Program-made: the position numbers and the translations under genes
The notes under the pieces: model-generated
Seen by the model: the letters and a program-made list of their open reading frames with translations, nothing else
What the model was told of the DNA's origin: nothing
Database searches by the model: none
NCBI GenBank assembly: GCA_023248215.1
Contig: JAHFEW010000018.1
Location: 1 to 59,420 of the forward strand
Direction of reading: 5' to 3'
Length of the DNA stretch: 59,420 bases
DNA from: Nitrospira sp.
Lineage (GTDB): Bacteria; Nitrospirota; Nitrospiria; Nitrospirales; Nitrospiraceae
Shown here: positions 26,447 to 40,881 of the stretch, in pieces
Layout: each line of letters starts with the position of its first letter
How positions within the stretch are numbered: position 1 is the stretch's first letter

Positions 26447-26846
26447 GCAATTATCGAGTTTTTCGACGAGATCCCCTGATGCCGCTCTGACAGTTGGCCT
26501 CAAAAACGACTAAACTTTGGCGCGTCTGCCGAAATCTTGAACAATAGCGCGGCCCTCTCAGCCTATCTGAGCATAGTGGGTATAGTTGATAGTCCACACC
26601 TAATCATCCACGAAATCACAGACTTCATTCATTCTGCCCTCGTTCCTCATATCGATCCTAAGTAATTGATTTTGTTTGGCACCGATCGTGCACAAGCAGG
26701 CCGAGGCTAAATCGTCATTGAGCAGACGCGCTGTGTCATTGAAATTGTCAACGAAGAATTTTGCGCTATCTTTGTCAGAGAGTCATCTGAGTGTCAGGGG
26801 CATACATCCCCGTCAGGGCGACCAGAAACAGGCAGGAGGAGGAGGC
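26447..26846. other. Intergenic leader of the chemosensory operon
   Basis: About 400 comparatively AT-rich bases hold no convincing gene. A frame open from 26676 merges with the DUF3365 gene but has no ribosome binding site and lacks a signal peptide. A sigma-54-type promoter candidate lies at 26677-26692, leaving a leader of about 140 bases. Confidence 0.5.
26677..26692 (+). promoter_or_regulatory. Candidate sigma-54 (-24/-12) promoter
   Basis: TGGCACCGATCGTGCA has the GG and GC dinucleotides at the exact spacing of the sigma-54 consensus (TGGCAC-N5-TTGCA), with one mismatch in the -12 box. It sits about 150 bases before the first gene of the chemosensory cluster. No sigma-54 activator gene is visible nearby. 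Confidence 0.4.
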
Positions 26847-27581
26847 ATGGCGAACAATTTCATCAAGAAATCCGTAGTGGTTGCACTGATGTTGACCTGT
26901 GTGGGTGCGGCCGGTCCCGCACCCGCCAATACCGAGGTGGAAACGGCAGAGCTGCTCATCAAGCTCGTGCAGGTGGGGCGTGGTCTCATCTCTGAACACC
27001 AAGCAACGATCAATGACGCCGGCAAAGGCGATAAAGGTTTTACAGGCGACTATGTCGCCAATCAAGTGATCGAACGGTTTCGCAAGGCGACGAAAATCGA
27101 TCTGAGCCGTCCTAATAGCACTCCACAAGCTCCGCTCTTTCTCGCCATGGTCGAATCGGAGAAGGAAGTGATCGACGAGGCCCAGCCGGTCATCAATAAG
27201 CAGGGAGTCGGATTCAAAGGCGTGATTCCCGCCGTCTTTGCCCGCAAGGCAGGAGATCGCTTCTATCGCAAAACCGGGATTCGCGTAAAGTTAACGAGCG
27301 CAGATTATCGGTTCCCTGGCAACCGGCCGGATGATTTCGAGTCGGAAGTGCTCCGGATTTTTGCCGACACGCGCCATCCCAAGGGACAGCCCTATAGCAA
27401 AGCCACGATGCTCGACGGGAAGCCGGTGCTGCGGATGATGGATCCTGAGTATGCCGCGGCTACCTGCCTGGGGTGCCACGGAAGCCCCAAAGGAGAGCGC
27501 GACATCACGGGCGCGAAGAAAGAAGGGTGGCATGAGGGCGACTTGGCGGGCGCCATCAGCATCGTGATTCCCATGCGGTAA
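26847..27581 (+). CDS. Secreted monoheme c-type DUF3365 (Tll0287-like) protein
   Basis: A 244-residue exported heme protein. An AGGAGGAGG site precedes ATG 26847. Residues 1-31 form a signal peptide (KKSVVVALMLTCVGAAGPAPAN). The rest is one DUF3365 domain ending with a CLGCH heme-binding motif (Cys207, Cys210, His211), followed by the family-typical GDLAGAISI strand. DUF3365 is often the periplasmic sensor part of chemoreceptors and kinases; here it is a free-standing protein at the head of a chemosensory operon. It may sense redox state or a gaseous ligand and act on the MCP encoded three genes later. That partnership is inferred from position only. Confidence 0.82.
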   Translation: MANNFIKKSVVVALMLTCVGAAGPAPANTEVETAELLIKLVQVGRGLISEHQATINDAGKGDKGFTGDYVANQVIERFRKATKIDLSRPNSTPQAPLFLAMVESEKEVIDEAQPVINKQGVGFKGVIPAVFARKAGDRFYRKTGIRVKLTSADYRFPGNRPDDFESEVLRIFADTRHPKGQPYSKATMLDGKPVLRMMDPEYAAATCLGCHGSPKGERDITGAKKEGWHEGDLAGAISIVIPMR

Positions 27582-27650: not shown

Positions 27651-28013
27651 ATGAGCAAGATTGTTGTCGTCGATGATTCCTATGCCGAGCTGCAGTTGAT
27701 CGAAGGATATCTCAAATCCGCCAATCATACGGTCGTGTCGTATCCCAACACGGACAAACTCGAAGATAAACTGGCGGTCGACAAGCCGGATCTGATCGTG
27801 CTCGATGTCGTGATGCCTGGGCGCAACGGGTTCCAGACCTGCCGTGACCTCAAGAGCGACGACCGTTTCAAGGGCATTCCGATTGTGCTCTGTACTTCGA
27901 AGGGGCAGGAAAGCGACAAGTTTTGGGGCCAGCAGCAAGGCGCGAACGGCTACGTCGTGAAGCCGTTTAAAGCAGAAGATTTGGTTGCAGCCGTGAAACG
28001 GGCGCTGAACTAA
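27651..28013 (+). CDS. PilH/CheY-like single-domain response regulator
   Basis: A 120-residue receiver. It has the acidic pair DD at 8-9, phospho-acceptor Asp52 in LIVLDVVMPG, Ser/Thr in LCTSKG, and Lys in YVVKPF. The WGQQQGANGYVVKPF segment resembles PilH-type receivers of Pil/Chp systems more than flagellar CheY. It would accept phosphate from the large CheA at 30587-33970 and influence a motor or an enzyme. GGGGAGG lies a few bases before the start. Confidence 0.88.
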   Translation: MSKIVVVDDSYAELQLIEGYLKSANHTVVSYPNTDKLEDKLAVDKPDLIVLDVVMPGRNGFQTCRDLKSDDRFKGIPIVLCTSKGQESDKFWGQQQGANGYVVKPFKAEDLVAAVKRALN

Positions 28014-28016
28014 CCC

Positions 28017-28562
28017 ATGAGTGACGTCCCGACGACCCATTCTCAAACGCTCGAATCATCCCCGGCTCACGGATCCTCTCGTCCATCGAGATTCTCCGCT
28101 GCGACGACCGACGGAACCCTGCGGATGTGTGTGTTGACGCTGGGTGGGGAACCGTTCGCCATCGATCTCCGTCATGTCAGCGAAGTATTCGAGGTGGAAT
28201 CCGTGACCGTCGTTCCTGGCATGCCCAGTCTGCTGACGGGGGTGACCAATCTTCGAGGTACGGTCATTTCTCTGATCGATCTGCGCGGAATGCTCGGCCT
28301 GACGATGAACAATGCCGCGCTTCCGTTCGCGGTCGTGATTCGTCAGGGCCCAAGACAGATCGGCGTACTTGTCGACCACGTTCCCGAGATTCACACCGTC
28401 TCTCGCGAGCACCTGCTGCCGGCCATGCAAGCCGGACCGGCCGGCGCGCGCCCCTGTGTGTCGGCCGTTCTTCGCCTGGACAAGCGTCTGGGAGGAGTTC
28501 TGGAGGTTCCGCAAGTTTTTGCCCAGGTCGATGGAGGCAGTACCGCATTGTCGGCAGCGTAA
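28017..28562 (+). CDS. CheW-type adaptor
   Basis: A 181-residue CheW-domain protein that couples receptors to the histidine kinase. After about 35 disordered residues the fold is clear: [44 protein letters not shown], and [13 protein letters not shown]. It starts three bases after the receiver stop, so both are translated from one message. Two further CheW-type proteins are encoded after CheA. Confidence 0.9.
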
Positions 28563-28659
28563 AAGGCAGTGGCTTGAATCTTCGCGGGCGTGCGTCGCCG
28601 GAGATTGTGCGACCGGTCGCCGAACGTTGAGGGAAGCAGCGAACAAGGAGGAGTGCACC

Positions 28660-30534
28660 ATGATCGGGCAAGGCGTCAAGAATCGATTCCAAGATATGAA
28701 GACCCAGTCGAAACTGCTGGTCAGTTTCGGTCTCGTCAGTTTCATCATCATGATCATGGCCAGTGTCGGTGTGTTCACCCTGCGCCAGCTCAGTAGTCAG
28801 TCACAAACGGTGTATGCCGACTATACCGTGCCGCTGGCCGAATTTGCTCAGATGGGAACTGCGTTGACCAAACATCACCAGATCTTGCTGGATGTCGCGG
28901 TGGCAACCAAGCAAGCCGACTTCGCCCAGGAGGCGACCAGGCTCCTCCCTCTGAAGGCAGAGGTCGAGAAAGCATTGGCTAACTACAAGGGTACAACCTT
29001 GCGCTCGTCGCGTTCCGGCCGTGATGAAATGAGGGACCTGGCGCTGTTTGAGCCGGCCCTGAAGAAATACTTCCAAGACTCAGACGGTGCCTTGAGCGCC
29101 ATGGCGGACAGCTTCGACCGAACCAAATTGACCTCTGGACAGGCCGAACAAATGCGGGCTCTTGGCGTCTTGGCCTTAACCGTCAACCTGACGCCGTCAT
29201 TCGAAAATGCCGTAAAGCGCCACAATGAACAGGTCACCAGCATTGAAGCGGTCGCTAAGGATCTCAACGACGACGCGCAGACCCTGGCCTCCACCGGTAC
29301 GTTCATTCTGGTCGTCGGCGGTCTGGTGGCCGTAGCGCTCGGAATTTTTGTCGGATACGTCCTTGCGACCTTCCTGTCACGTGGTATCACGCACATCGCC
29401 AACGTCGCGACCCAGGCCGCCGGCGGCAATCTTCAAGCTCGCGCGAAAATTCAGTCGCACGATGAGTTGGGCCAGATGGCGACGGCGTTCAACTCCATGC
29501 TCGACCGTATTACGACTCTCGTGTCTACCGAGGAAGAACGCGACACCATGCAGAAACGCCTCATGCAGTTTCTTGTGCTCGTCTCCGAGGTCGGTAAAGG
29601 AGACCTGACCAAGCGAGGTGAAGTGACGGCGGACATGTTCGGTAACCTTGCGGACGGGTTCAACCTCATGATCGCGCGGTTCGGACAATTGTTGAAGCAG
29701 GTGCGTGAAGCAGCCGACCGTGTGAACAAGTCAGCCGGTACCCTGCGGGATTCAGCCGGTCAGATGTCCGGAACCGCCCGGACGCAGGCGGAAGAATCCG
29801 TGCGTACCCTGGGCGCCGTTGAACAGCTGGCGGCCGGTATGCGTCAAGTGGCGACCACCGCCGGTGCGTCTTCCGACTCCGCCAAGCAGGTGCTTTCGGC
29901 GACGGAACGAGGCAACGTCGCGGTGCAAGAAACTGTGCGGGACATGCAGAGCATTCGGTCCGCCGTGCAACGCATGTCCAAGCAGGTGAAGGGTCTCGGC
30001 GATCGTTCACTCGAAATTTCCCAGATCGTGTCGACGATTCGGGATATCGCCAATCAAACGAACTTGCTGGCGCTCAACGCCGCCATCGAGGCGGCCGGCG
30101 CCGGAGAGGCCGGTGCGCGATTCGCCGTCGTCGCCGACCAGGTCCGAAAGCTGGCGGAAAGTTCCACACAGGCCACGCGTGAAATCGCCGACCTCGTGAA
30201 AGTGATTCAAACGGAAACGCAGGACGCGGTGGTCGCCATGGAACATGAAACGCAGGCGGTGGAAGCCGGGTCCGCCTCGGCTCTCCGAACCGGTGACGTG
30301 TTCGCTGAAATTTCGGACATTGCCAAGCGGTCGTCCGAGTTGGCCCAGAACATCGCGAGCGCGGCGTCGGAACAGACCGCGTCGACGGAAAAAGTCGGTC
30401 GAGCCATTAAGGAGTTCACCGGCGGCGCCGTGGCGACGCAGAAGCAAACGGACTCAACACGGCTCACGATCGAGGACATGGCAAAATTAGCCGAAGGCCT
30501 CAACTCATCAGTCGCCCAGTTCAAACTCGCGTAG
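28660..30534 (+). CDS. Methyl-accepting chemotaxis protein
   Basis: A 624-residue inner-membrane receptor. ATG 28660 follows AAGGAGGA; a frame extending back to 28369 lies over cheW and is discarded. TM1 is about 19-41, then a four-helix-type periplasmic sensor, TM2 about 213-235, HAMP about 236-290, and a long cytoplasmic coiled coil. Its tip (about 462-500, [20 protein letters not shown]) contacts CheA/CheW. No CheR or CheB gene lies in the cluster, so adaptation, if any, must use enzymes encoded elsewhere. The nearby DUF3365 protein may supply the input. Confidence 0.93.
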
Positions 30535-30586
30535 AGGAACTCTTGAAGAGCGGTAATGTGTATCCGCTCGGATGTTGTGTGGGTCA

Positions 30587-33500
30587 ATGACCTCTGATTT
30601 TGATCGCGACCAGTTGCTGGACATTTTCGTTGCCGAGGCCGGCGACGACATGGCGCGGTTCTGGAAGGCGTTGCATCCCGAGGGGAAGGCGTATCCGGAA
30701 CCAGGCGAAGTGGCCGAGTTTCATACGGTCGGCCACAAGTTGAAGGGCGCGGCGCTGTTGTATGGATTTTCGGGCCTCGGCCAACTTGGGGCGTTGCTCG
30801 AAGAAACACTGGAACAGGTTCAGGAGATTCCTTCCGAACGATGGCTCGTCGTCCTTCAATTGATTCGGGACATCGTGGCCTCCTTTCGGAGTCAGGTGGA
30901 GCAGATTGGACGCGGCGGAGGCGAGGACCCATCCGTTGTCGAGAATTTCGTCCGACGATGTGGTGAGGTGGTGCCGGCTGGTTCGGCCGAGGTCTCTGCC
31001 GACTCTGGTGAAACCTCGGATAGACCGGCGGAAGACTACCTGATTCCCGGTGTCGACGAGGAAGTCCTCTCCTACTTTTCCCCGGAAGCCGAAGAGTATC
31101 TCGACACCATTCAGACACTTCTGCAGCGGTTGGAAGCCGACTCGCAGGATCCCGAGACGATTCACCAATTGTATCGGGTCGCTCACACCCTGAAGGGGTC
31201 GGCCTATACCGTCGGGTTTCAGGTAGTTGGAGATATCGCCCATCCGATCGAAGCCTGCATGATCGCCGTTCGGGAAGGACGTGCGGCCATCGCTCCACAT
31301 TGGATCACCGTGATCCGGCATGCTGTTGAGGTGATCCGCTCCCTTATGGCGCGAGACGCGCAATTGGGACCTCGCTTACAGCAGGAGGTTCCTCGCATCA
31401 AGACATTGCTTTGGGAGTTGGAGGAAGGCGTGGGTCAAGCCCCGGCCGCAGCACCTGCGTCCGATCACCTTGAGGCGACACCGGTGCAAGAGGTGATGCC
31501 ACCCGCCACGTCCGTCGCCACCACAACCGTTCAACCTGTGAGCGCGACCCACTCAAGCGTGCTCACGGAAGACTATCTGATTCCAAACCTTGATCCCGAA
31601 GTGATGTCGTATTTCGCGCCGGAAGCCCAGGAGTATGTGGAGAATCTAGAGGCCGATCTGTTGCGCGTGGATAAGGACGCGGCCAATCCAGAGACGATCC
31701 ATCAACTGTTCCGCACGGCCCATACACTCAAAGGGTCGGCTTATACCGTGGGATTCCAGGCGATCGGGGATCTGACGCACCACATCGAAGACTTCATGGG
31801 GGCTGTCCGTGAGGGACACCTTCAGGTTCTGCCCGGTCACACGGATTTGCTGTTGCGTGCGATCGATGTCATTCGTGCCCTGATGCGACGCGATCCATCA
31901 ATACTGGGGCGCACGCGACAACGATTTGCCGCATCACTACAGGAGTTGAAGCAGCTGGGCCAAACCCACCCAGCAGCTGACGAAACACAACAGACTGTGC
32001 CGTTGGCGTCCGAGGCTGCCTCCACAGAAGACCTGAGCGAAACCGTCGGCATCGAGTCGGCGAAAGGCATGGACGGCAAAACCGGTGAAGAGCGGGAGGT
32101 GATCCGGGTCAGCCGTGATCGCTTGGAGCGTCTCCTGAATCTGGTCGGCGAATTGGTCATCGACCGTGGACGCCTCGAGCAGCGACTGAGGACGTTGGAT
32201 CAACTGGCCTCGCAAGTAGTGGCCAACAAGAGCCGGTTGATCGACGCGGTTCGAACGTTCGAGGACAAGCACACCTTCTCATTTCAGCCGTCGCCCACGT
32301 CACAAGGCGAAGAGGTGCCACAATCCCTTCCTGGGGTCAGTGATTTCGGAAGTTTGGAGTTCGACAAGTACGACGACTTCAACATCTTGGCTCGGCGCAT
32401 CAGCGAGGTGACTGCAGATATCACCGAATCCATGTCGCAGTTGACTGGATCGATCCACCGTGCTCAGGACGACATGGGCCAGTTACAGCAGTTGACACTG
32501 GGTATGCGTGACGAAATCGCTCGCGCTCGAATGGTGCCGATTGGGACGCCGTTTACGCGGTTCCGCCGTGCAGCGCGTGAGATGGCGCGCGCCACGGGCA
32601 AGGAAGTCAACCTGGTCACATCCGGTGAACATACCGAAATCGACACCGGCGTCGTCGAGCGTCTCGTCGACCCACTTGTTCACCTGGTAAGGAATGCGGT
32701 CTACCATGGGATTGAGCCCGCTGGCGCTCGCCTCCGGCAAGGCAAGCCGGCGGTCGGCACGATTTATCTTCATGCGGCTCATCGAGGAAACTCGGTGCTC
32801 ATCGAAGTTGAGGACGATGGCGCGGGTCTCGACATCACGAAGATCAAGGTGAAAGCCGTCAAGCTGGGACTCGTGAGGCCGGATGTCGCGGAATCATTGC
32901 CTGAGAGCGAAGTCATCAAATTTATTTTTCTGCCTGGATTCTCCACCGCGGATACTGTCGGCGATCAAGCGGGTCGGGGAGTCGGAATGGATGTGGTCAA
33001 GCGTGTCATCGAGACGATGAACGGTCACATCGAAGTGGAATCGGTACGCGGGCAGGGGACCAAGTTTACGATGCATCTGCCGCTCACCCTCTTGATCGCG
33101 ACCGCCTTGCTCGTCCGGGTCGAGAAGGATCGGTATGCGATCCCCCTGCCGAGTGTGCGTGAAGTCACGATGTCGACCGCGTCTACGATCCAGCAGATGG
33201 GTGATCGCTCGGTGATGCAGATCGGCGACGAGGCCATCGAGGTGTTTCCCCTCGGGAGTCTCATTCGTCGGGAATCAGGCACCATTGATGGTTCCAAGCC
33301 CGTGGTGGTCGTGCGGACATCGACCGGGGCGCTCGGCTGCGCCGTCGATGAGTTGCTGGGCCGGCAAGAAATTGTCATCAAGTCGTTAGGGGCGTTGAAG
33401 CCGTTTGAGCGTTCGGTGTTCGGGGGGGCCACCATCGATCCCGAAGGACGCATCGTGCTGGTGCTGGATGTCAGTCGGTTGACGACGCGTGAACACCATG

Positions 33501-33970
33501 AAGCCATGCCGACCGGGCAGAGCGGTCCCGCGTCGCCGACGCTCGACGAACCGGTGCAGGCTATCCCAGCACAGCCTTCGGACAGACGCCTGCCGCTGTT
33601 GTTGATCGACGACTCGCTCAGTATCAGAAAATTCGTTGGACGCATGCTTGAAGCGGCCGGGTATACCGTCGAAACGGCAACGGACGGGGAGGAGGGATGC
33701 CGCAAAGCATTGATGCAGAACTACCAGCTCATTATCACCGATCTCGAAATGCCGAAATTGAATGGGTATGAAGTGATTCAAGCGCTTCGCGCGAGGCCTC
33801 AGACGCACGCGACCCCGATTCTCGTGATGACTACGCGGGCCGGAGAGAAACATCGCCAGATGGCCGTCAGTGTGGGCGCGTCTGGCTACATTGCCAAACC
33901 GGTTGAAGAACGGGCCTTGATTCAGGAAGTTCAGAGATGGACGGGCCGTGAAGCCGCAGTGAGAAAATAG
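30587..33970 (+). CDS. CheA-type hybrid histidine kinase with three Hpt domains and a receiver
   Basis: A 1127-residue ChpA-like kinase. Hpt1 (about 8-110) has VGHKLKGAAL. Hpt2 and Hpt3 (about 145-265 and 320-440) each have AHTLKGSAYTVGF and share the preceding EDYLIP linker, so they look like a tandem duplication. A dimerisation domain follows (about 505-590), then a GHKL ATPase with HLVRNAVYHG and GRGVGMDVV, a CheW-like domain, and a C-terminal receiver (about 1003-1120) with LIITDLEMPKLNG. ATG 30587 begins MTSDFDRDQ; ATG 30572 is possible. It is the hub of this array. Confidence 0.93.
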   Translation: MTSDFDRDQLLDIFVAEAGDDMARFWKALHPEGKAYPEPGEVAEFHTVGHKLKGAALLYGFSGLGQLGALLEETLEQVQEIPSERWLVVLQLIRDIVASFRSQVEQIGRGGGEDPSVVENFVRRCGEVVPAGSAEVSADSGETSDRPAEDYLIPGVDEEVLSYFSPEAEEYLDTIQTLLQRLEADSQDPETIHQLYRVAHTLKGSAYTVGFQVVGDIAHPIEACMIAVREGRAAIAPHWITVIRHAVEVIRSLMARDAQLGPRLQQEVPRIKTLLWELEEGVGQAPAAAPASDHLEATPVQEVMPPATSVATTTVQPVSATHSSVLTEDYLIPNLDPEVMSYFAPEAQEYVENLEADLLRVDKDAANPETIHQLFRTAHTLKGSAYTVGFQAIGDLTHHIEDFMGAVREGHLQVLPGHTDLLLRAIDVIRALMRRDPSILGRTRQRFAASLQELKQLGQTHPAADETQQTVPLASEAASTEDLSETVGIESAKGMDGKTGEEREVIRVSRDRLERLLNLVGELVIDRGRLEQRLRTLDQLASQVVANKSRLIDAVRTFEDKHTFSFQPSPTSQGEEVPQSLPGVSDFGSLEFDKYDDFNILARRISEVTADITESMSQLTGSIHRAQDDMGQLQQLTLGMRDEIARARMVPIGTPFTRFRRAAREMARATGKEVNLVTSGEHTEIDTGVVERLVDPLVHLVRNAVYHGIEPAGARLRQGKPAVGTIYLHAAHRGNSVLIEVEDDGAGLDITKIKVKAVKLGLVRPDVAESLPESEVIKFIFLPGFSTADTVGDQAGRGVGMDVVKRVIETMNGHIEVESVRGQGTKFTMHLPLTLLIATALLVRVEKDRYAIPLPSVREVTMSTASTIQQMGDRSVMQIGDEAIEVFPLGSLIRRESGTIDGSKPVVVVRTSTGALGCAVDELLGRQEIVIKSLGALKPFERSVFGGATIDPEGRIVLVLDVSRLTTREHHEAMPTGQSGPASPTLDEPVQAIPAQPSDRRLPLLLIDDSLSIRKFVGRMLEAAGYTVETATDGEEGCRKALMQNYQLIITDLEMPKLNGYEVIQALRARPQTHATPILVMTTRAGEKHRQMAVSVGASGYIAKPVEERALIQEVQRWTGREAAVRK

Positions 33971-34017: not shown

Positions 34018-34590
34018 ATGGGTCTCCGGGGACATAAGACTGCAGCTGCGTCGGGTGGACAGACGGTCAGGTGTTTGGTAGCGCTCATCGGGCCCACGCA
34101 TGTCGCCTTTCCTGCTCACTGGGTTCGTGGCATCATCACGCCTGCCGAAGCGGGATCTGGTGGACGTGTCACCTGGGCGAACTCCTCCTACGAGCGGACT
34201 GATCTCGCCGGCCGGCTCACCATCGGCGCTCAAATGGTAACGGCCGAGACCCGGATCATTTTATACGGCAATGAGCTGCGCTCTCGATCGTTTATGGTGA
34301 ATGGGGTCTTGGGCCTTATCGACGTCGAACGAGCGCAGATTCAGCCACTCCCGTCACAGTTTCGAGGAGGGGAGCGCGACCGACTGCTCGGCCTTTTTTC
34401 AGGTACGGCCTATGTCGCACTCATTGCCAATCCTTTCTGGGTGCTTGAACTCCCACCTCGCAAGAATGCCCTGGATGCCTTCGTCTTTCAGGCCTCTGAA
34501 CGCCGAGCGGGAGAGTTTGACTCCAGGCTTCGCCTGTCGTCCGCCACCCACGAAGACGCCGTCCCGACACCAGCGGGTCATGAGACGTAG
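34018..34590 (+). CDS. Divergent CheW-like protein
   Basis: A 190-residue cytoplasmic protein whose first 150 residues follow the CheW strand pattern: LVALIGPTHVAFPAHWVRGII, NGVLGLIDV. The typical central motif of CheW (a segment like NLRG followed by LIDL) is degraded, and the C-terminal 40 residues are hydrophilic. It lies 47 bases after CheA and 16 before another CheW-type gene. It may be an adaptor that binds a different partner. The family call is less certain than for its neighbour. Confidence 0.65.
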   Translation: MGLRGHKTAAASGGQTVRCLVALIGPTHVAFPAHWVRGIITPAEAGSGGRVTWANSSYERTDLAGRLTIGAQMVTAETRIILYGNELRSRSFMVNGVLGLIDVERAQIQPLPSQFRGGERDRLLGLFSGTAYVALIANPFWVLELPPRKNALDAFVFQASERRAGEFDSRLRLSSATHEDAVPTPAGHET

Positions 34591-34606: not shown

Positions 34607-35086
34607 ATGTTACGCGCTCAGTTACGCAGGCAGGCCCAAGTGGGGACGAAGGGTACCGCGGAGGCGCGGATGCAGGGCCTGGTCGTGTTCTCAGTGGCAG
34701 GGCAACGGCTCGCCGCCAGGACTGACGAGATTGGCGGCGTCATGCCATGGCCTGGCGCGACGGTGGTCCCCAGCGACACGCCATTCGTCGCCTCGCTTGT
34801 CCGTCAGGAGAAACATTGCCTCCCCGTGTTCGACCTCGCCGCAAAGTTCAGCCGTACCATGCACGAGAATGAGCCGCTCTGTCTGATTGTCAAACACGTA
34901 GATGGTCCCCTCGCAATCTGTATCGATTCCCAGGTTCCATCACTGCACATGGTGGCGCGCTCCGCAATGCACTATCGTGTCGGGAACGACCCCGACATCG
35001 CCGGGACGTGCGTTGCCGGCGATGAAGAACTTCCCATCATCAACCTGACGACCTTGGGGGTCTCATCGATCCGTCCAGCGAGATGA
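34607..35086 (+). CDS. CheW-type adaptor, second clear copy
   Basis: A 159-residue protein with a CheW fold: GLVVFSVAGQRLAARTDEIGGV, a segment ending LVRQEKHCLPVFDLAAKF, LAICIDSQVPSLHMV and ELPIINL. A basic N-terminal tail of about 22 residues precedes the domain. It sits between the divergent CheW-like gene and the receiver/coiled-coil gene in one transcription direction with short gaps. Confidence 0.78.
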   Translation: MLRAQLRRQAQVGTKGTAEARMQGLVVFSVAGQRLAARTDEIGGVMPWPGATVVPSDTPFVASLVRQEKHCLPVFDLAAKFSRTMHENEPLCLIVKHVDGPLAICIDSQVPSLHMVARSAMHYRVGNDPDIAGTCVAGDEELPIINLTTLGVSSIRPAR

Positions 35087-35111: not shown

Positions 35112-36593
35112 ATGCCAAAGATTTTGATCGCCGATGACAGTATCGCAGTTCGCAAGGTGGCCGAACGTCTCCTGACCGAGGCCGGAATGGGGGTCACCCT
35201 GGCTGCCAACGGATCGGAGGCGCTGGCGCTCCTCAGTAAGGATCGTCCGGATTTGATCGTGTCCGATGTCATTATGCCGGACAAGAGCGGCTATGAGGTC
35301 TGTGCATTCATCCGGGCGCAGGCAAACCTCGCGGACATTCCCGTGCTCTTGATCAGCGGGATTGTGAACGACGAAGTATCTCGGCAGGCGGAATCTTGCA
35401 AGGCCGATGGGGTATTGAAGAAGCCGTTTCAGGGAACGTCGCTGAAAGATCGGGTGCTGGATTTGCTCATGAAGCGGCAGCCCAAACCCGCGCCGGATCC
35501 CCAACCATCTCCAAGTCCAGCCTATGCGGAGAAGTCCGTCATTGAGGAGCATCCTATCGCGCCGATCGCATGCACGCCCGAAGATGCTGAACACACTCTT
35601 GTGACAAACCAGGAGTGTCAGCAACAGAACGAATCTGTCATGATCAGTCTTCCAGAGCCGGACTTGATGCCGCTTTCGGCGGACAGCCACGAGGCCGTAG
35701 CACCCATGGCAGATCATCTGCCTGTTGCGCCGAGTGTCTTGCAGGAAGTCGACGATCGACACGCGGAGGTTCTGGCACAGCGCGATGCTCGGATCACAGC
35801 ACTTGAGGAACAACTTGCGTGTGAATGCCGACAGAGCCATGAACAGATACAGCAGATGCAGAGTGCGCTGGATGAACAACGCCTGCAGGTCGCAGACTTA
35901 TCCTCACGCACTGGAGCACTCGATCAGGCACTGACGGAGGAACGGGCGCAACGGGCCACCCTTACGGAACAATTGAAAGAAGTATCGAGGCAAGCTCATC
36001 GGGCCGATGAGCTGGAAACCGCCTTGGCTGAGGCGCGTCATTGCAACGAGGACCTCTTACAACAAGTCTCGGACAATGCCCGCAATGCTTCGCGTATTCT
36101 TGAATTGGAGGCGCATCTTGCGGCAGAGCGTGGCGCAGCTACCCAATTGGTCCAGCAGATCACCACACTTGAGCATGCCGAACAACGCGCGCATGAGCTC
36201 GAAACGACCCTCGCGAACGAGCGCGAGCAAGCGGAGGCTTGCCGAAAGCAAGGCGCCGCATTAGAGGAACTCGCTGCCCGGGTACCGGTACTTGAAGAGG
36301 CCCTTGAACATGAGCGCGCACGCATTGCGGAACTCGATGGCATACTCGCGACAGAGCGGGAGACGGCGGCCTTGGTGATGACACAGGTCAAGCAGTTGGA
36401 AGCGGCCGTTCAGCGTGCCCATGACCTCGACCTCGCATTGGCCGGTGAGCGGGAACGTTCAATGCAGCTGACGAAACGTGCGACGGAAGCGGAGCACGTG
36501 GCCGAACAGTCCAATCGGCGATTTGAAGACATGGCACGGAAGCTGGGCGAGATCGCGGGACTCGCCTCCCAACTGGGGAACGGAAAACGCTAG
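35112..36593 (+). CDS. Receiver domain with long coiled-coil tail
   Basis: A 493-residue cytoplasmic protein. Residues 1-122 are a complete receiver: acidic pair 8-9, Asp52 in LIVSDVIMPDKSG, and Lys in GVLKKPF. Residues about 123-215 are a Pro/Glu-rich linker. Residues about 217-490 are a nearly continuous heptad-rich coiled coil dominated by Ala, Glu, Gln, Arg and Leu. There is no DNA-binding or enzymatic output domain, so phosphorylation by the cluster's CheA would most likely change scaffold assembly or localisation. An AGAGGA site is upstream. Confidence 0.8.
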   Translation: MPKILIADDSIAVRKVAERLLTEAGMGVTLAANGSEALALLSKDRPDLIVSDVIMPDKSGYEVCAFIRAQANLADIPVLLISGIVNDEVSRQAESCKADGVLKKPFQGTSLKDRVLDLLMKRQPKPAPDPQPSPSPAYAEKSVIEEHPIAPIACTPEDAEHTLVTNQECQQQNESVMISLPEPDLMPLSADSHEAVAPMADHLPVAPSVLQEVDDRHAEVLAQRDARITALEEQLACECRQSHEQIQQMQSALDEQRLQVADLSSRTGALDQALTEERAQRATLTEQLKEVSRQAHRADELETALAEARHCNEDLLQQVSDNARNASRILELEAHLAAERGAATQLVQQITTLEHAEQRAHELETTLANEREQAEACRKQGAALEELAARVPVLEEALEHERARIAELDGILATERETAALVMTQVKQLEAAVQRAHDLDLALAGERERSMQLTKRATEAEHVAEQSNRRFEDMARKLGEIAGLASQLGNGKR

Positions 36594-36628: not shown

Positions 36629-37600
36629 ATGAGTCAGGGGCAGGATGCCACCGTGTCGACCGAACCAGAACAAACCGAAGACGATTTTCAAAAAGAGCTG
36701 GTTGAACTCTTCGGCCAAGAAGCTCACGAGTGGCTCATTCAAATCCATTCGGCACTGACCGAGCTCGAGAGTCAGCCTGATCTCGATCGACATACCCAAC
36801 TCGTGGACGCGGTCGTACGAGGCATTACCAGTCTAGGCGGCTCTGCGGCCACGGTCAATCTCTCCGATGTGGAACGTGCCACCTTTGCCCTTCTCCCGTT
36901 CATCGACACCCTCAAAGACCGGACCACGGCCACCAGGCAGGACTATGCCACAGTCCGTGAACAGTTCCGTATCGTCATCACGTCCGTGACGACGGCGACC
37001 GGAATTACACTTGATCTTGGACCTTCGCAGGAGGCACCGCCACAATCCGAACCGGCGGCCGATCTCCTGACGCTTCTGAACGCGCTGCGCACCCTTCAGG
37101 ATGACTACGCCGTGAGTGGTCCTTCCTCCCGCAGCCTGATTCCTCAGGTCATGCAGCGTCTGGAGCATCAGGCAAGGCAAGGGGCCGGGCAGATTCAGGC
37201 GACGAGCTTTCGTCAGATGCTGCGTGATCTCCAAGAGGCGGATGCGCAATGTTTGGAATCCCTCCGACAACAATTGCCGGACATTGCCCAGGACCTGAGC
37301 AGGCTCCGCATTGAAGGATTGACGGCACTGGAGCCTAGCAATATGTTAGGCGGATGTATCCAGAACATCGAACGCCTCCAAGGCGTTGCCAAGCAGACGC
37401 ATGCCACCCCCCTCGTCACCTTTCTGGGCGGTCTCCAAAGTTTTCTTTCCCTCATCGTCCAGCATCGCATTGTCATCACCTCGCAGCGGGTGCATTCGGT
37501 GGAAACACGAATTCGCACCGTCCTTGTTACCATCGAGGGATGGATCACCGCAGGACAACAGGAACGGGATGCGATGGGAAGACTGCTGCCGGTGGCCTAA
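36629..37600 (+). CDS. His-less Hpt-like protein with conserved C-terminal helical domain
   Basis: A 323-residue, all-helical cytoplasmic protein. Residues about 20-115 resemble an Hpt domain (ELFGQEAHEWLIQIHSAL, then a segment ending in LGGSAATVNL), but the phosphorylated His position is Thr67 and the following Lys is Gly70. It should therefore not accept phosphate. Residues about 145-323 form a second helical domain that recurs at the C-terminus of the HD-GYP protein encoded next (shared FLxGLxxFLxxxVQH and LLPVA/ILPMA endings). It may bind CheA, CheW or the receiver coiled-coil protein. No family name is claimed. Confidence 0.7.
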   Translation: MSQGQDATVSTEPEQTEDDFQKELVELFGQEAHEWLIQIHSALTELESQPDLDRHTQLVDAVVRGITSLGGSAATVNLSDVERATFALLPFIDTLKDRTTATRQDYATVREQFRIVITSVTTATGITLDLGPSQEAPPQSEPAADLLTLLNALRTLQDDYAVSGPSSRSLIPQVMQRLEHQARQGAGQIQATSFRQMLRDLQEADAQCLESLRQQLPDIAQDLSRLRIEGLTALEPSNMLGGCIQNIERLQGVAKQTHATPLVTFLGGLQSFLSLIVQHRIVITSQRVHSVETRIRTVLVTIEGWITAGQQERDAMGRLLPVA

Positions 37601-37924
37601 CCAGAACTACACCTAACCGGCGTCTTCGTGCCGGCCCTTTGACAAGGTATCGAATTCCCACGGACCTATTCCTGCCGCCGCCCATGAGGCCGCCCGGCGA
37701 CGGTTTCTTGACGAGTCCGGGCCCATGAGGCGCTGTGGGGCTGACGAGCGCCAAGAAGCGTCTCCGCGAATGTCGTGCCACTTGCGTGTCAACGCAGATG
37801 TGCGGAAGATGGGCTCCTGTGTCAGGTGAAGATGCTACTCATGGCGAGATGGTATCAGTAGTCAGCGCCGCAGGGGCATTTGCCGAGTAACCAATTCCCT
37901 GTGGGCAGAAGGAAGAGGAGCGCA
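37601..37924. other. Gap inside the chemosensory cluster
   Basis: About 320 bases without a credible gene. CCGGC-GTCTTCGT-GCCGG (about 37618-37635) can fold as a short hairpin after the upstream stop and may end transcription, though no T-run follows. The next gene has GGAAGAGGAG before its ATG, so it may have its own promoter in this gap; none is recognisable. Confidence 0.4.
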
Positions 37925-40012
37925 ATGGGGGAGACGGAACAGAATCGCTACCGGCAGGCCGAAGAGGCACTTATGCAGGTGGCCGCCGCCGTTCAGCGGC
38001 AGGAGCGGGTGGATCTCACGAAGATGACCCATCTTGCCGGCACCATCGTCGATTCGATTCAAGAAAACGATCAGTTGGTCGTCGAGGCGCTCTCCAGTCC
38101 CGCAGGCCCTCCGCTGGTGACCAATCTCGTCAACGTCGGCATTCTGGCCACGAAGGTCGGCATTGGCCTCGGGTATTATGGTGCAGAATTGCGACGACTG
38201 GCATTGGCCGGACTGGTGCACGACATCGGTATTTTCGCCGTACCGCAGAACCTGCTCACAAAAACCGGACGCCTGTCCCCCGATGAGCGAGCCCTGGTCG
38301 AGCAACATCCGCGTCTGGGGTGCGGGGTGATCCAGCGTCTCGGAGCGGACTACGCCTGGCTGGCTGAAGTCGTGCTGCAGGCCCATGAGCGGGGGAGGGG
38401 ACAGGGGTATCCCAATCGCTTGAAGGGACGTGAGATCAACGAGCTGGCGCAGATCATCGGCCTCGTTGATATTTTCGATGCGCTCGTCAGTCCACGTCCC
38501 TATCGTCGGCGCCTGCTGCCGCACGAAGCCATCCGCGAGTTGCTGAACACGGAACGCACTGCGTTTCCACGTGAAATCATGAAAGGCTTGGTGGAGCAGC
38601 TGTCGGTCTATCCGTTGGGAACGAAGGTACGTCTGAACAGCGGAGAGGAAGGAGTGGTGGTTCGCATCACGCCCGCGTACCCCTCGCGTCCAGTCCTTCG
38701 TGTCACCGGTGAGCAAGAGGAGTCCGGGACCGCCGCGCCGCGCTATCTCGATCTGAGTCTGTTGCCCCATGTGTCGGTGGCGGACACCGTCGATCCGCCG
38801 GCGCTCGAGCGGATCACGTTCCCATCTACCCCGCCATCTGTTGAAGCGGCCGGGTCGTCTGCCAACGCATCGGAGCAGTTTGCCGCATTACTGGAGAGCC
38901 TTGATGCCATTGCCGGCGTGATTCAAGCCGCGGTGGAGAAGTCCCCCGCTCCTGCCTTCATCGACCAGGTTCCGCCGGCAGTCGATCCCTCTGAACAGAC
39001 GACGCATGTACGACGGGAGATTCTCGGCCTGTTTGTGCTGGAAGCTCGCGAATGGCTCAACCAAATTCAGACGGCTCTGGAGCGACTGGATATGACGAGC
39101 GAGCAGCCTCGCCGAGCCAAGCTGGCCACGATTCTGTGGCAGAGTGTGAGCAACCTCGCCCGATCCGCCGCGACCGTCGGCCTGACCGCCGTGGAGGACA
39201 TGGCCACGACGCTCCTTCCGATCCTCCAAGCGGCAGGTAAGCATGAACGGGTCGTGGCGGCCCATCATGTGGCCTCGCTTCGAGAGGGTCTGCTGCAAAT
39301 CACCAAGACCGTGCAGGAGCTCGAACAGGTCGAGAGCAGACAGCATGAAGGCGCCGTCGCAGTCCCATCCGAACCGGAGCAGATGCAACGCGGTGAATTG
39401 CTTCAACCGTTGAGCACAGAAGCAGATGTGCCCACGGAGCCCTCCCAGCAGGAGATGGCCCCGGGCGTGCTACCATCCACCCCCATTCTCGATGCCTTGC
39501 GGCAATTGCATGTCGCCCGAGGGCGGTCGCTTGAACCCGTGCGCGATGTACTGGAGACGGTCATTCAACGGTCCGAGCGCAAGATGGAAGGCAGCGCAGA
39601 GGTCGTGGATGCGCGAACCATCGGCCGTATTCTGAAAGACTTGGACGAGCTGGATGAACAATTTCTCGCGCACATGCAGACGCATGTCCCGGCTGTACTC
39701 GCCACGCTCAGCCACATCGGTCGTGCAAGCGAGGAGCGCGCCCTCCCTCCACAAGCGTTGGAGCCCATTTTTGACCATATCGACATTCTCTCTGATGCGG
39801 CGGAACGGGTCTCAGCCGCAAACATCACCCTGTTCTTACATGGCTTGCGCACGTTTCTTCGGGTCACTGTCCAACATAAGCCTTCTGCCGTGAGGGAACG
39901 ATTGGCTGCAGTGGAGGAACGATTAGTGGCTCTGGTTCCGTTGGCTCAACAGTGGGTCGATATCGGTCGAGTGGAACGGGCGGCAATTTTTGACATTCTT
40001 CCCATGGCGTAG
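37925..40012 (+). CDS. Divergent HD-GYP domain fused to His-less Hpt-like and helical domains
   Basis: A 695-residue protein. Residues about 60-230 are an HD-GYP domain, a family of cyclic-di-GMP phosphodiesterases: VHDIG at 98-102, EQHPRLG, and the GYP motif at 161-163. The canonical HDIGK reads HDIGI, and HHExxDGxGYP reads AHERGRGQGYP, with Ala153 for the first His and Arg158 for the Asp, so activity is doubtful. Residues about 235-280 are a small beta domain. Residues about 360-480 resemble Hpt but with Ser409 at the His position. The last 190 residues are homologous to the C-terminus of the protein at 36629-37600. ATG 37925 is preceded by an AGGAG. Confidence 0.78.
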   Translation: MGETEQNRYRQAEEALMQVAAAVQRQERVDLTKMTHLAGTIVDSIQENDQLVVEALSSPAGPPLVTNLVNVGILATKVGIGLGYYGAELRRLALAGLVHDIGIFAVPQNLLTKTGRLSPDERALVEQHPRLGCGVIQRLGADYAWLAEVVLQAHERGRGQGYPNRLKGREINELAQIIGLVDIFDALVSPRPYRRRLLPHEAIRELLNTERTAFPREIMKGLVEQLSVYPLGTKVRLNSGEEGVVVRITPAYPSRPVLRVTGEQEESGTAAPRYLDLSLLPHVSVADTVDPPALERITFPSTPPSVEAAGSSANASEQFAALLESLDAIAGVIQAAVEKSPAPAFIDQVPPAVDPSEQTTHVRREILGLFVLEAREWLNQIQTALERLDMTSEQPRRAKLATILWQSVSNLARSAATVGLTAVEDMATTLLPILQAAGKHERVVAAHHVASLREGLLQITKTVQELEQVESRQHEGAVAVPSEPEQMQRGELLQPLSTEADVPTEPSQQEMAPGVLPSTPILDALRQLHVARGRSLEPVRDVLETVIQRSERKMEGSAEVVDARTIGRILKDLDELDEQFLAHMQTHVPAVLATLSHIGRASEERALPPQALEPIFDHIDILSDAAERVSAANITLFLHGLRTFLRVTVQHKPSAVRERLAAVEERLVALVPLAQQWVDIGRVERAAIFDILPMA

Positions 40013-40356: not shown

Positions 40357-40881
40357 ATGCCAAAACTCGTGACAGTCAAACAACAAGAAGGACAGGACGC
40401 AAAAGCGACGGCCTACGTCAAAGCCTATATTTTATTTCCAGCCGGCATTCTCGGCTTGGTCTCCATGGTCGGGGGTGTAGGCGCCTTGGGGTATCAGCTC
40501 ATTGCAACCGACACCTATACCTGGGAGACGTTTCTGCAAAGTTGCGGGCTGTTAGTGCTGGGAGGGGGGCTCGGTTGGTTGCAGACGACGTACCACCGGT
40601 CGATCCTGCGCAATCGCCCTGAGGTCTTCGCCGCACGGATGCGGCAACCGACGACCAAAAAGGGGGGACGTCCCAAGCGTGAGGGAGGGTCGACCCAGGA
40701 CTCGCCCAGCGGGTCGCCATGGGCTCCTGTCGCCTACATGGCTGGCCTGGCGCTGCTCCTGTTTGGATCGACGGTCGGCGTGGTCTATGGTGCGGTGTAT
40801 CCGGTCGCTGCGTATTTCTTGCCCTGGGCAGGATTTTTTTGGGCGAAGTTGTTTTTTTGGCGGACGGTTCTAAAGAACTGA
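40357..40881 (+). CDS. Hypothetical four-helix membrane protein
   Basis: A 174-residue protein with two hydrophobic pairs. Helices lie near residues 28-50 and 60-78, then a basic loop with KKGGRPKREGG, then helices near 124-145 and 148-168. No motif identifies a function. It converges on lpxD with an eight-base gap. It could be an envelope-associated protein; nothing more can be said from sequence. Confidence 0.6.
   Translation: MPKLVTVKQQEGQDAKATAYVKAYILFPAGILGLVSMVGGVGALGYQLIATDTYTWETFLQSCGLLVLGGGLGWLQTTYHRSILRNRPEVFAARMRQPTTKKGGRPKREGGSTQDSPSGSPWAPVAYMAGLALLLFGSTVGVVYGAVYPVAAYFLPWAGFFWAKLFFWRTVLKN

Follow-up and report, generated by a model that had tools for sequence, protein, structure and literature searches.

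What can Hpt-like proteins contribute to a chemosensory system when they lack the histidine that would carry the phosphate? The purpose of His-less Hpt domains in multi-Hpt CheA systems is an acknowledged open question (PMC10782961), and it is raised anew by a locus of Nitrospira sp. Within the 59,420 nucleotides of contig JAHFEW010000018.1 that we analyzed, hereafter the window, two adjacent plus-strand open reading frames, termed P1 and P2, lie in a chemosensory gene cluster and encode such domains outside of CheA, with P2 carrying an HD-GYP domain in addition (Table 1).

Table 1. Features of the chemosensory cluster and domain boundaries of P1 and P2 (window coordinates)
Feature	Position	Strand	Remarks
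Single-domain receiver protein	27651..28013	+	Candidate docking partner
CheW	28017..28562	+	
Methyl-accepting chemoreceptor (MCP)	28657..30534	+	4HB_MCP, HAMP, MCPsignal
CheA	30572..33970	+	Three His-bearing Hpt domains, kinase, CheW, C-terminal receiver
Divergent CheW-like protein	34018..34590	+	Under Pfam cut-off
CheW-like protein	34607..35086	+	
Receiver + coiled-coil protein	35112..36593	+	Always adjoins P1; candidate docking partner
P1	36629..37600	+	323 aa, stand-alone; pseudo-Hpt plus helical C-domain
P1 pseudo-Hpt domain	36680..37006	+	Residues 18-126; Pfam Hpt, CheA P1 fold match
Thr67 codon (P1)	36827..36829	+	At site of phosphorylatable His
P1 C-terminal helical domain	37061..37597	+	Residues 145-323; possible second degenerate Hpt, helices 191-317
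P2	37925..40012	+	695 aa; degenerate HD-GYP, pseudo-Hpt, helical C-domain
P2 HD-GYP domain	38072..38620	+	Residues 50-232; alignment to PmGH
P2 pseudo-Hpt domain	38993..39334	+	Residues 357-470
Ser409 codon (P2)	39149..39151	+	At site of phosphorylatable His
P2 C-terminal helical domain	39473..40009	+	Residues 517-695
Small putative membrane protein	40357..40881	+	Last gene of the syntenic cluster in almost all Nitrospiraceae loci that extend this far

P1 and P2 share an Hpt fold that lacks the phosphorylatable histidine

The two genes lie where the initial annotation had placed them, and its description of them as consecutive paralogs holds: P1 and P2 are co-linear across their Hpt-like and C-terminal regions, with ~27% identity (E ~1e-24). 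Their nearest relatives are found in Nitrospira genomes. The most likely start codon of P2 is ATG 37925, with an in-frame TTG at 37880. A gap of 324 bp separates the genes, and a simple scan of it revealed no promoter, a result that settles nothing on cotranscription.

P1 matched the Pfam Hpt family (PF01627) with 25.3 bits, above the cut-off of 24.6, and the Hpt-like domain of P2 alone scored 19.5 bits, below it. Each of the 31 aligned family members matched Pfam Hpt with E<=1, and the lowest E-value was 1e-9. A profile of the family (90 sequences, without CheA rows) was related to Hpt2/3 of the CheA from the same cluster over 99 columns (profile comparison, E 6e-11). AlphaFold models were obtained with a mean pLDDT of 85 for P1 and a lower 68.8 overall for P2; a whole-protein Foldseek search with P1 gave no match under E 0.001. 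For the Hpt-like domains, structure prediction bore out the expected helical bundles. Both overlay the P1 domain of Thermotoga maritima CheA (1tqg), with Z 13.2 and rmsd 2.4 over 104 of 105 residues for the P1 protein and Z 15.4 and rmsd 1.8 over 104 residues for P2. By sequence profile and four-helix fold, both proteins thus qualify as Hpt (PF01627), and at the site of the phosphorylatable His they carry Thr67 and Ser409, as had been noticed initially.

The loss extends to the entire family. In 59 aligned homologs, the site is occupied by Thr (50), Ser (3), Ala (3), Asn (2) or Gly (1) and never by His; five further homologs from shrunken genomes have Ala or Ser there, again never His. Ten matches of the same profile outside the two bacterial families that harbor P1 and P2 were CheA proteins, most of which displayed an evident His motif, which shows that histidines, where present, are not masked by the alignment. 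Judged by these residues, the Hpt folds of P1 and P2 would be unable to take or pass on phosphate.

Both proteins end in a shared helical domain that the initial annotation did not recognize, and searches of Pfam and NCBIfam likewise assigned it to no family. In the AlphaFold model of P1, this C-domain comprises a small helical entry (residues 146-190) and four subsequent helices (191-317) whose order is that of an Hpt bundle. A profile comparison aligned it co-linearly with the N-terminal domain over 97 columns at E 3-6e-4; as controls, reversing the profile gave 0.0025, and the lowest value from 20 shuffles was 0.007. Comparison with the PDB yielded one match across the domain, an unrelated designed bundle. 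These data are suggestive only, and the four-helix core could be another Hpt in a heavily eroded state.

The HD-GYP domain of P2 is catalytically degenerate

The N-terminal HD-GYP domain first annotated in P2 is present, as seen from its Pfam HD_5 match (96.6 bits), its fold and its GYP motif, which is kept in 29 of 29 HD-GYP sequences. To this, the alignment adds that the domain is catalytically degenerate. In the numbering of PmGH (4mcw; residues and mutants from PMC4159591), D183 is replaced by G61, E185 by P63, H189 by N67, K225 by I103 and H276 by A153, leaving P2 without the full metal-ligand and catalytic set of HD-GYP phosphodiesterases. In PmGH, alanine at H189, H276, K225 or D183 abolishes activity (PMC4159591). 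The replacements are fixed across the 28-29 Nitrospiraceae sequences sampled, fused and stand-alone: N67 and G61 in 28/28, A153 in 28/29 (one Val), and invariably Ile, Leu or Val at position 103. The link to c-di-GMP turnover that had been suggested for P2 is therefore not supported, since residues essential in PmGH are missing in all 28 sequences checked.

Other parts of the active site are retained. No variation was seen in H221, D222, H250, H277, D305, R314 or the GYP motif, and the c-di-GMP contact sites Y285 (Y162 in P2), R314 (R191) and I294 (I171) are kept in 29/29, 29/29 and 28/29 sequences, respectively; I294 and R314 contact the nucleotide in PmGH. Loss of catalytic ligands together with retention of nucleotide-contact residues is the pattern of a DvhD-like receptor. 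Moreover, the HD-GYP domain is the most conserved part of P2, with a mean identity to the window of 91% at the genus level, compared to 84% for the Hpt-like domain, 78% for the C-domain and 21% for the linker. In the same kind of alignment, both H189 and H276 are retained by the nine further HD-GYP proteins that this genome encodes, and the degeneracy is thus a property of P2. Among these nine, several differ at the K225 or E185 positions, and in one Leu replaces the H of the HD motif.

Given the lost catalytic residues, the preserved nucleotide pocket and the strong constraint, the HD-GYP domain of P2 is most likely a putative c-di-GMP receptor, which fits these sequence features better than a turnover enzyme. 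P2 may still bind some metal and have residual activity, because H221, D222, H250, H277 and D305 are kept and RpfG is active without equivalents of E185 and H189 (PMC4159591).

P1 and P2 accompany a multi-Hpt CheA cluster

Gene order around P1 and P2 is near-constant: receiver, CheW, MCP, CheA, CheW, CheW, receiver/coiled-coil, P1, [P2], membrane protein. The initial annotation had let P1 and P2 close the operon; the conserved cluster instead runs on to the membrane protein. CheA combines multiple Hpt domains with a C-terminal receiver, a trait of the Tfp/ACF class that is meant here as a trait only, following the class trend described in PMC10782961. The genome encodes two PilT-type ATPases over the cut-off, as well as flagellins, and since PilT-type ATPases are present, the output of the chemosensory system could be pili. 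Just 5' of the cluster, a plus-strand gene (26676-27581) codes for a Tll0287-like protein (PF11845, E 5e-25) that contains the haem-type motif CLGCH. It is retained upstream in most Nitrospiraceae loci reaching that far and could serve the array as a periplasmic redox/haem sensor.

Among 396 genomes drawn from the phylum, the P1/P2 family was detected in 104, all belonging to two families of the Nitrospirales. A further 15 same-phylum matches were weak, and the ten of them that were followed up turned out to be CheA proteins, not family members. With the window CheA as query and a threshold of E<=1e-150, a CheA orthologue was found in 97 genomes, 96 of them within the two families, and all of these 96 also contain the P1 family. 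The anticipated co-occurrence with the triple-Hpt CheA cluster was thus confirmed. Nine Nitrospiraceae genomes without P1 likewise lack this CheA. Eight P1-positive genomes have no CheA at the threshold; five of these possess a divergent CheA beside P1, and two have their matches on short or cut contigs. The eighth (G140) has only a weakly matching stretch (L135:7319-7495) that corresponds to the end of P1, contains a stop codon and directly precedes a gene of the 40357..40881 type. It looks like a broken remnant of P1 after loss of the system; the membrane protein gene persists there despite the loss of the CheA cluster.

Five shrunken clusters (L130-L134) indicate which of the neighbors may matter most for P1. 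Their CheA alignment stops before the C-terminal receiver and the CheW genes are gone, and the receiver/coiled-coil gene and a divergent P1 remain together. Because this pair persists, the receiver/coiled-coil protein is the best candidate partner of P1.

Fusion and separation of the HD-GYP domain

In a phylogenetic tree, P1 forms one clade and the P2 tail another, and single-copy forms, from the sister family and three Nitrospiraceae genera, group apart from both. In six genomes of three genera (L100-L104, L119), the HD-GYP domain is encoded by a separate gene of 352-394 aa that comes directly after P1, at the place otherwise taken by the fused P2. These stand-alone domains fall at two positions of the HD-GYP tree, at one of which they are surrounded by fused forms. 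Fusion followed by secondary separation is thus the likely course, although the tree is unrooted. The occurrence of the HD-GYP as a neighboring gene in some species and as a fusion in others supports its functional tie to the pseudo-Hpt. The coupling is not universal: in some Nitrospiraceae the fused P2 is absent, or a gene of its own encodes the HD-GYP.

Comparison with known signaling proteins

By the residues that define them, P1 and P2 belong neither to the active Hpt nor to the active HD-GYP proteins. With the CheA P1 domain they share fold and sequence profile (1tqg), but they have no phosphorylatable His and no kinase in the same protein. The Arabidopsis pseudo-phosphotransfer protein AHP6 likewise has an Hpt fold without His; unlike P1 and P2, it is a plant protein with a single domain and acts as an inhibitor. 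FimL, a homolog of the ChpA N-terminus, binds a PilG-type receiver and the polar hub FimV. In Pseudomonas aeruginosa, it has two Hpt-like domains without His and serves as a scaffold beside a multi-Hpt CheA, holding PilG with ChpA and linking Chp to cAMP (PMC3019171, PMC10519157). Like P1 and P2, FimL offers stand-alone, His-less Hpt-like domains next to a multi-Hpt CheA and a receiver, and canonical phosphotransfer is not expected. Differences are that FimL has Gln at both His sites (PMC3019171), a cAMP output and no described HD-GYP, whereas P1 and P2 have Thr/Ser sites and genes inside the CheA cluster, and one copy is fused to a degenerate HD-GYP. Likened by description, not by sequence, FimL would be the closest known protein.

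For the HD-GYP portion, the counterpart is DvhD from Desulfovibrio vulgaris, which binds c-di-GMP without metal and does not hydrolyze it (PMC13090378). As in P2, metal ligands are lost and the nucleotide pocket is kept, and DvhD (9rbz) was among the better structural matches of the P2 model (Z 15.0, rmsd 4.3, 182 residues). The two differ in that the HD pair itself is missing from DvhD, a PAS protein whose periplasmic domain controls an adhesin protease (PMC13090378), whereas P2 keeps HD, has lost H189 and H276 and is fused to a pseudo-Hpt. The phosphodiesterases Bd1817 (3tmb; Z 19.3, rmsd 3.7, 211 residues) and PmGH (4mcw; Z 14.5, rmsd 4.0, 172 residues) resemble P2 in fold and Pfam HD_5 match, but five catalytic or metal-ligand residues of PmGH are replaced in P2.

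A proposed scaffold that may respond to c-di-GMP

By analogy, P1 and P2 may be FimL-like pseudo-Hpt output scaffolds, to which P2 would add a non-catalytic, c-di-GMP-responsive input, a reading to which we give roughly even chances. The two proteins would sit at the output end of a multi-Hpt chemosensory system of the pili-type or alternative class. Their Hpt fold would have been retained as a docking surface for receivers, which could thereby be kept close to the CheA array whether phosphorylated or not, much as PilG is held by FimL. The receiver/coiled-coil protein, the single-domain receiver and CheA's own receiver are candidates. The degenerate HD-GYP of P2, whose catalytic loss is seen in the alignment, may bind c-di-GMP without cutting it and thereby make scaffolding c-di-GMP-dependent, with a presumed effect on output. 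In a more specific version, possible rather than probable, the non-enzymatic HD-GYP would sense c-di-GMP and the fused pseudo-phosphotransfer pair would gate whether receivers are held at the CheA array or released.

Other roles of the Hpt folds have to be weighed against this. P1 and P2 might be decoys that, like AHP6, compete with the CheA Hpt domains for receivers and damp or time the phosphorelay. Being His-less Hpt folds closest in sequence to Hpt2/3 of the same CheA, in a cluster encoding several receivers, they would suit this task, but the fused HD-GYP, the best conserved part of P2, and the conserved C-domain would be left unexplained, and we regard decoys as unlikely. Phosphorylation of Thr67 and Ser409 in place of His, as in Tpt/Spt domains, appears highly improbable. 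The prevalence of Thr would agree with it, and ChpA has Thr/Ser domains (PMC12632253), but the His-less domains of ChpA were not phosphorylated in vitro (PMC10782961), and the variation at the site, including Ala, Asn or Gly in several orthologs and Ala or Ser in the shrunken genomes, makes a phospho-Thr role unlikely.

With respect to the HD-GYP, the initial annotation implied an active phosphodiesterase, tethered to the array such that chemosensing sets c-di-GMP breakdown. The HD and GYP motifs, the retained H221, D222, H250, H277 and D305 and the precedent of RpfG are in its favor; we nevertheless consider it quite improbable, as H276 and K225, essential in PmGH, are lost in all orthologs along with D183, E185 and H189, while neither H189 nor H276 has been lost from the nine paralogs that this genome encodes. 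Lost metal ligands and a retained GYP motif would also be compatible with a module devoted to protein-protein contacts, docking for example a GGDEF protein through GYP and binding no nucleotide. The fixation of I294 and R314, which touch the nucleotide in PmGH, argues against it and renders it unlikely.

We found no paper describing the P1/P2 pair or linking Nitrospira, CheA and HD-GYP in this manner. The proposal of an undescribed signaling branch has to be tempered all the same, since a His-less Hpt scaffold is already known in FimL. A fixed cluster in about a hundred Nitrospirales genomes encodes His-less Hpt domains in small proteins of their own, which are convenient in size for testing the docking hypothesis, and one of these proteins comes as a natural fusion with a candidate c-di-GMP receptor. 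If the gating version is true, it would constitute a c-di-GMP-dependent input into a chemosensory phosphorelay that requires neither phosphate transfer nor c-di-GMP hydrolysis. P1 and P2 may thus connect chemosensory arrays to c-di-GMP in a direct, physical way.
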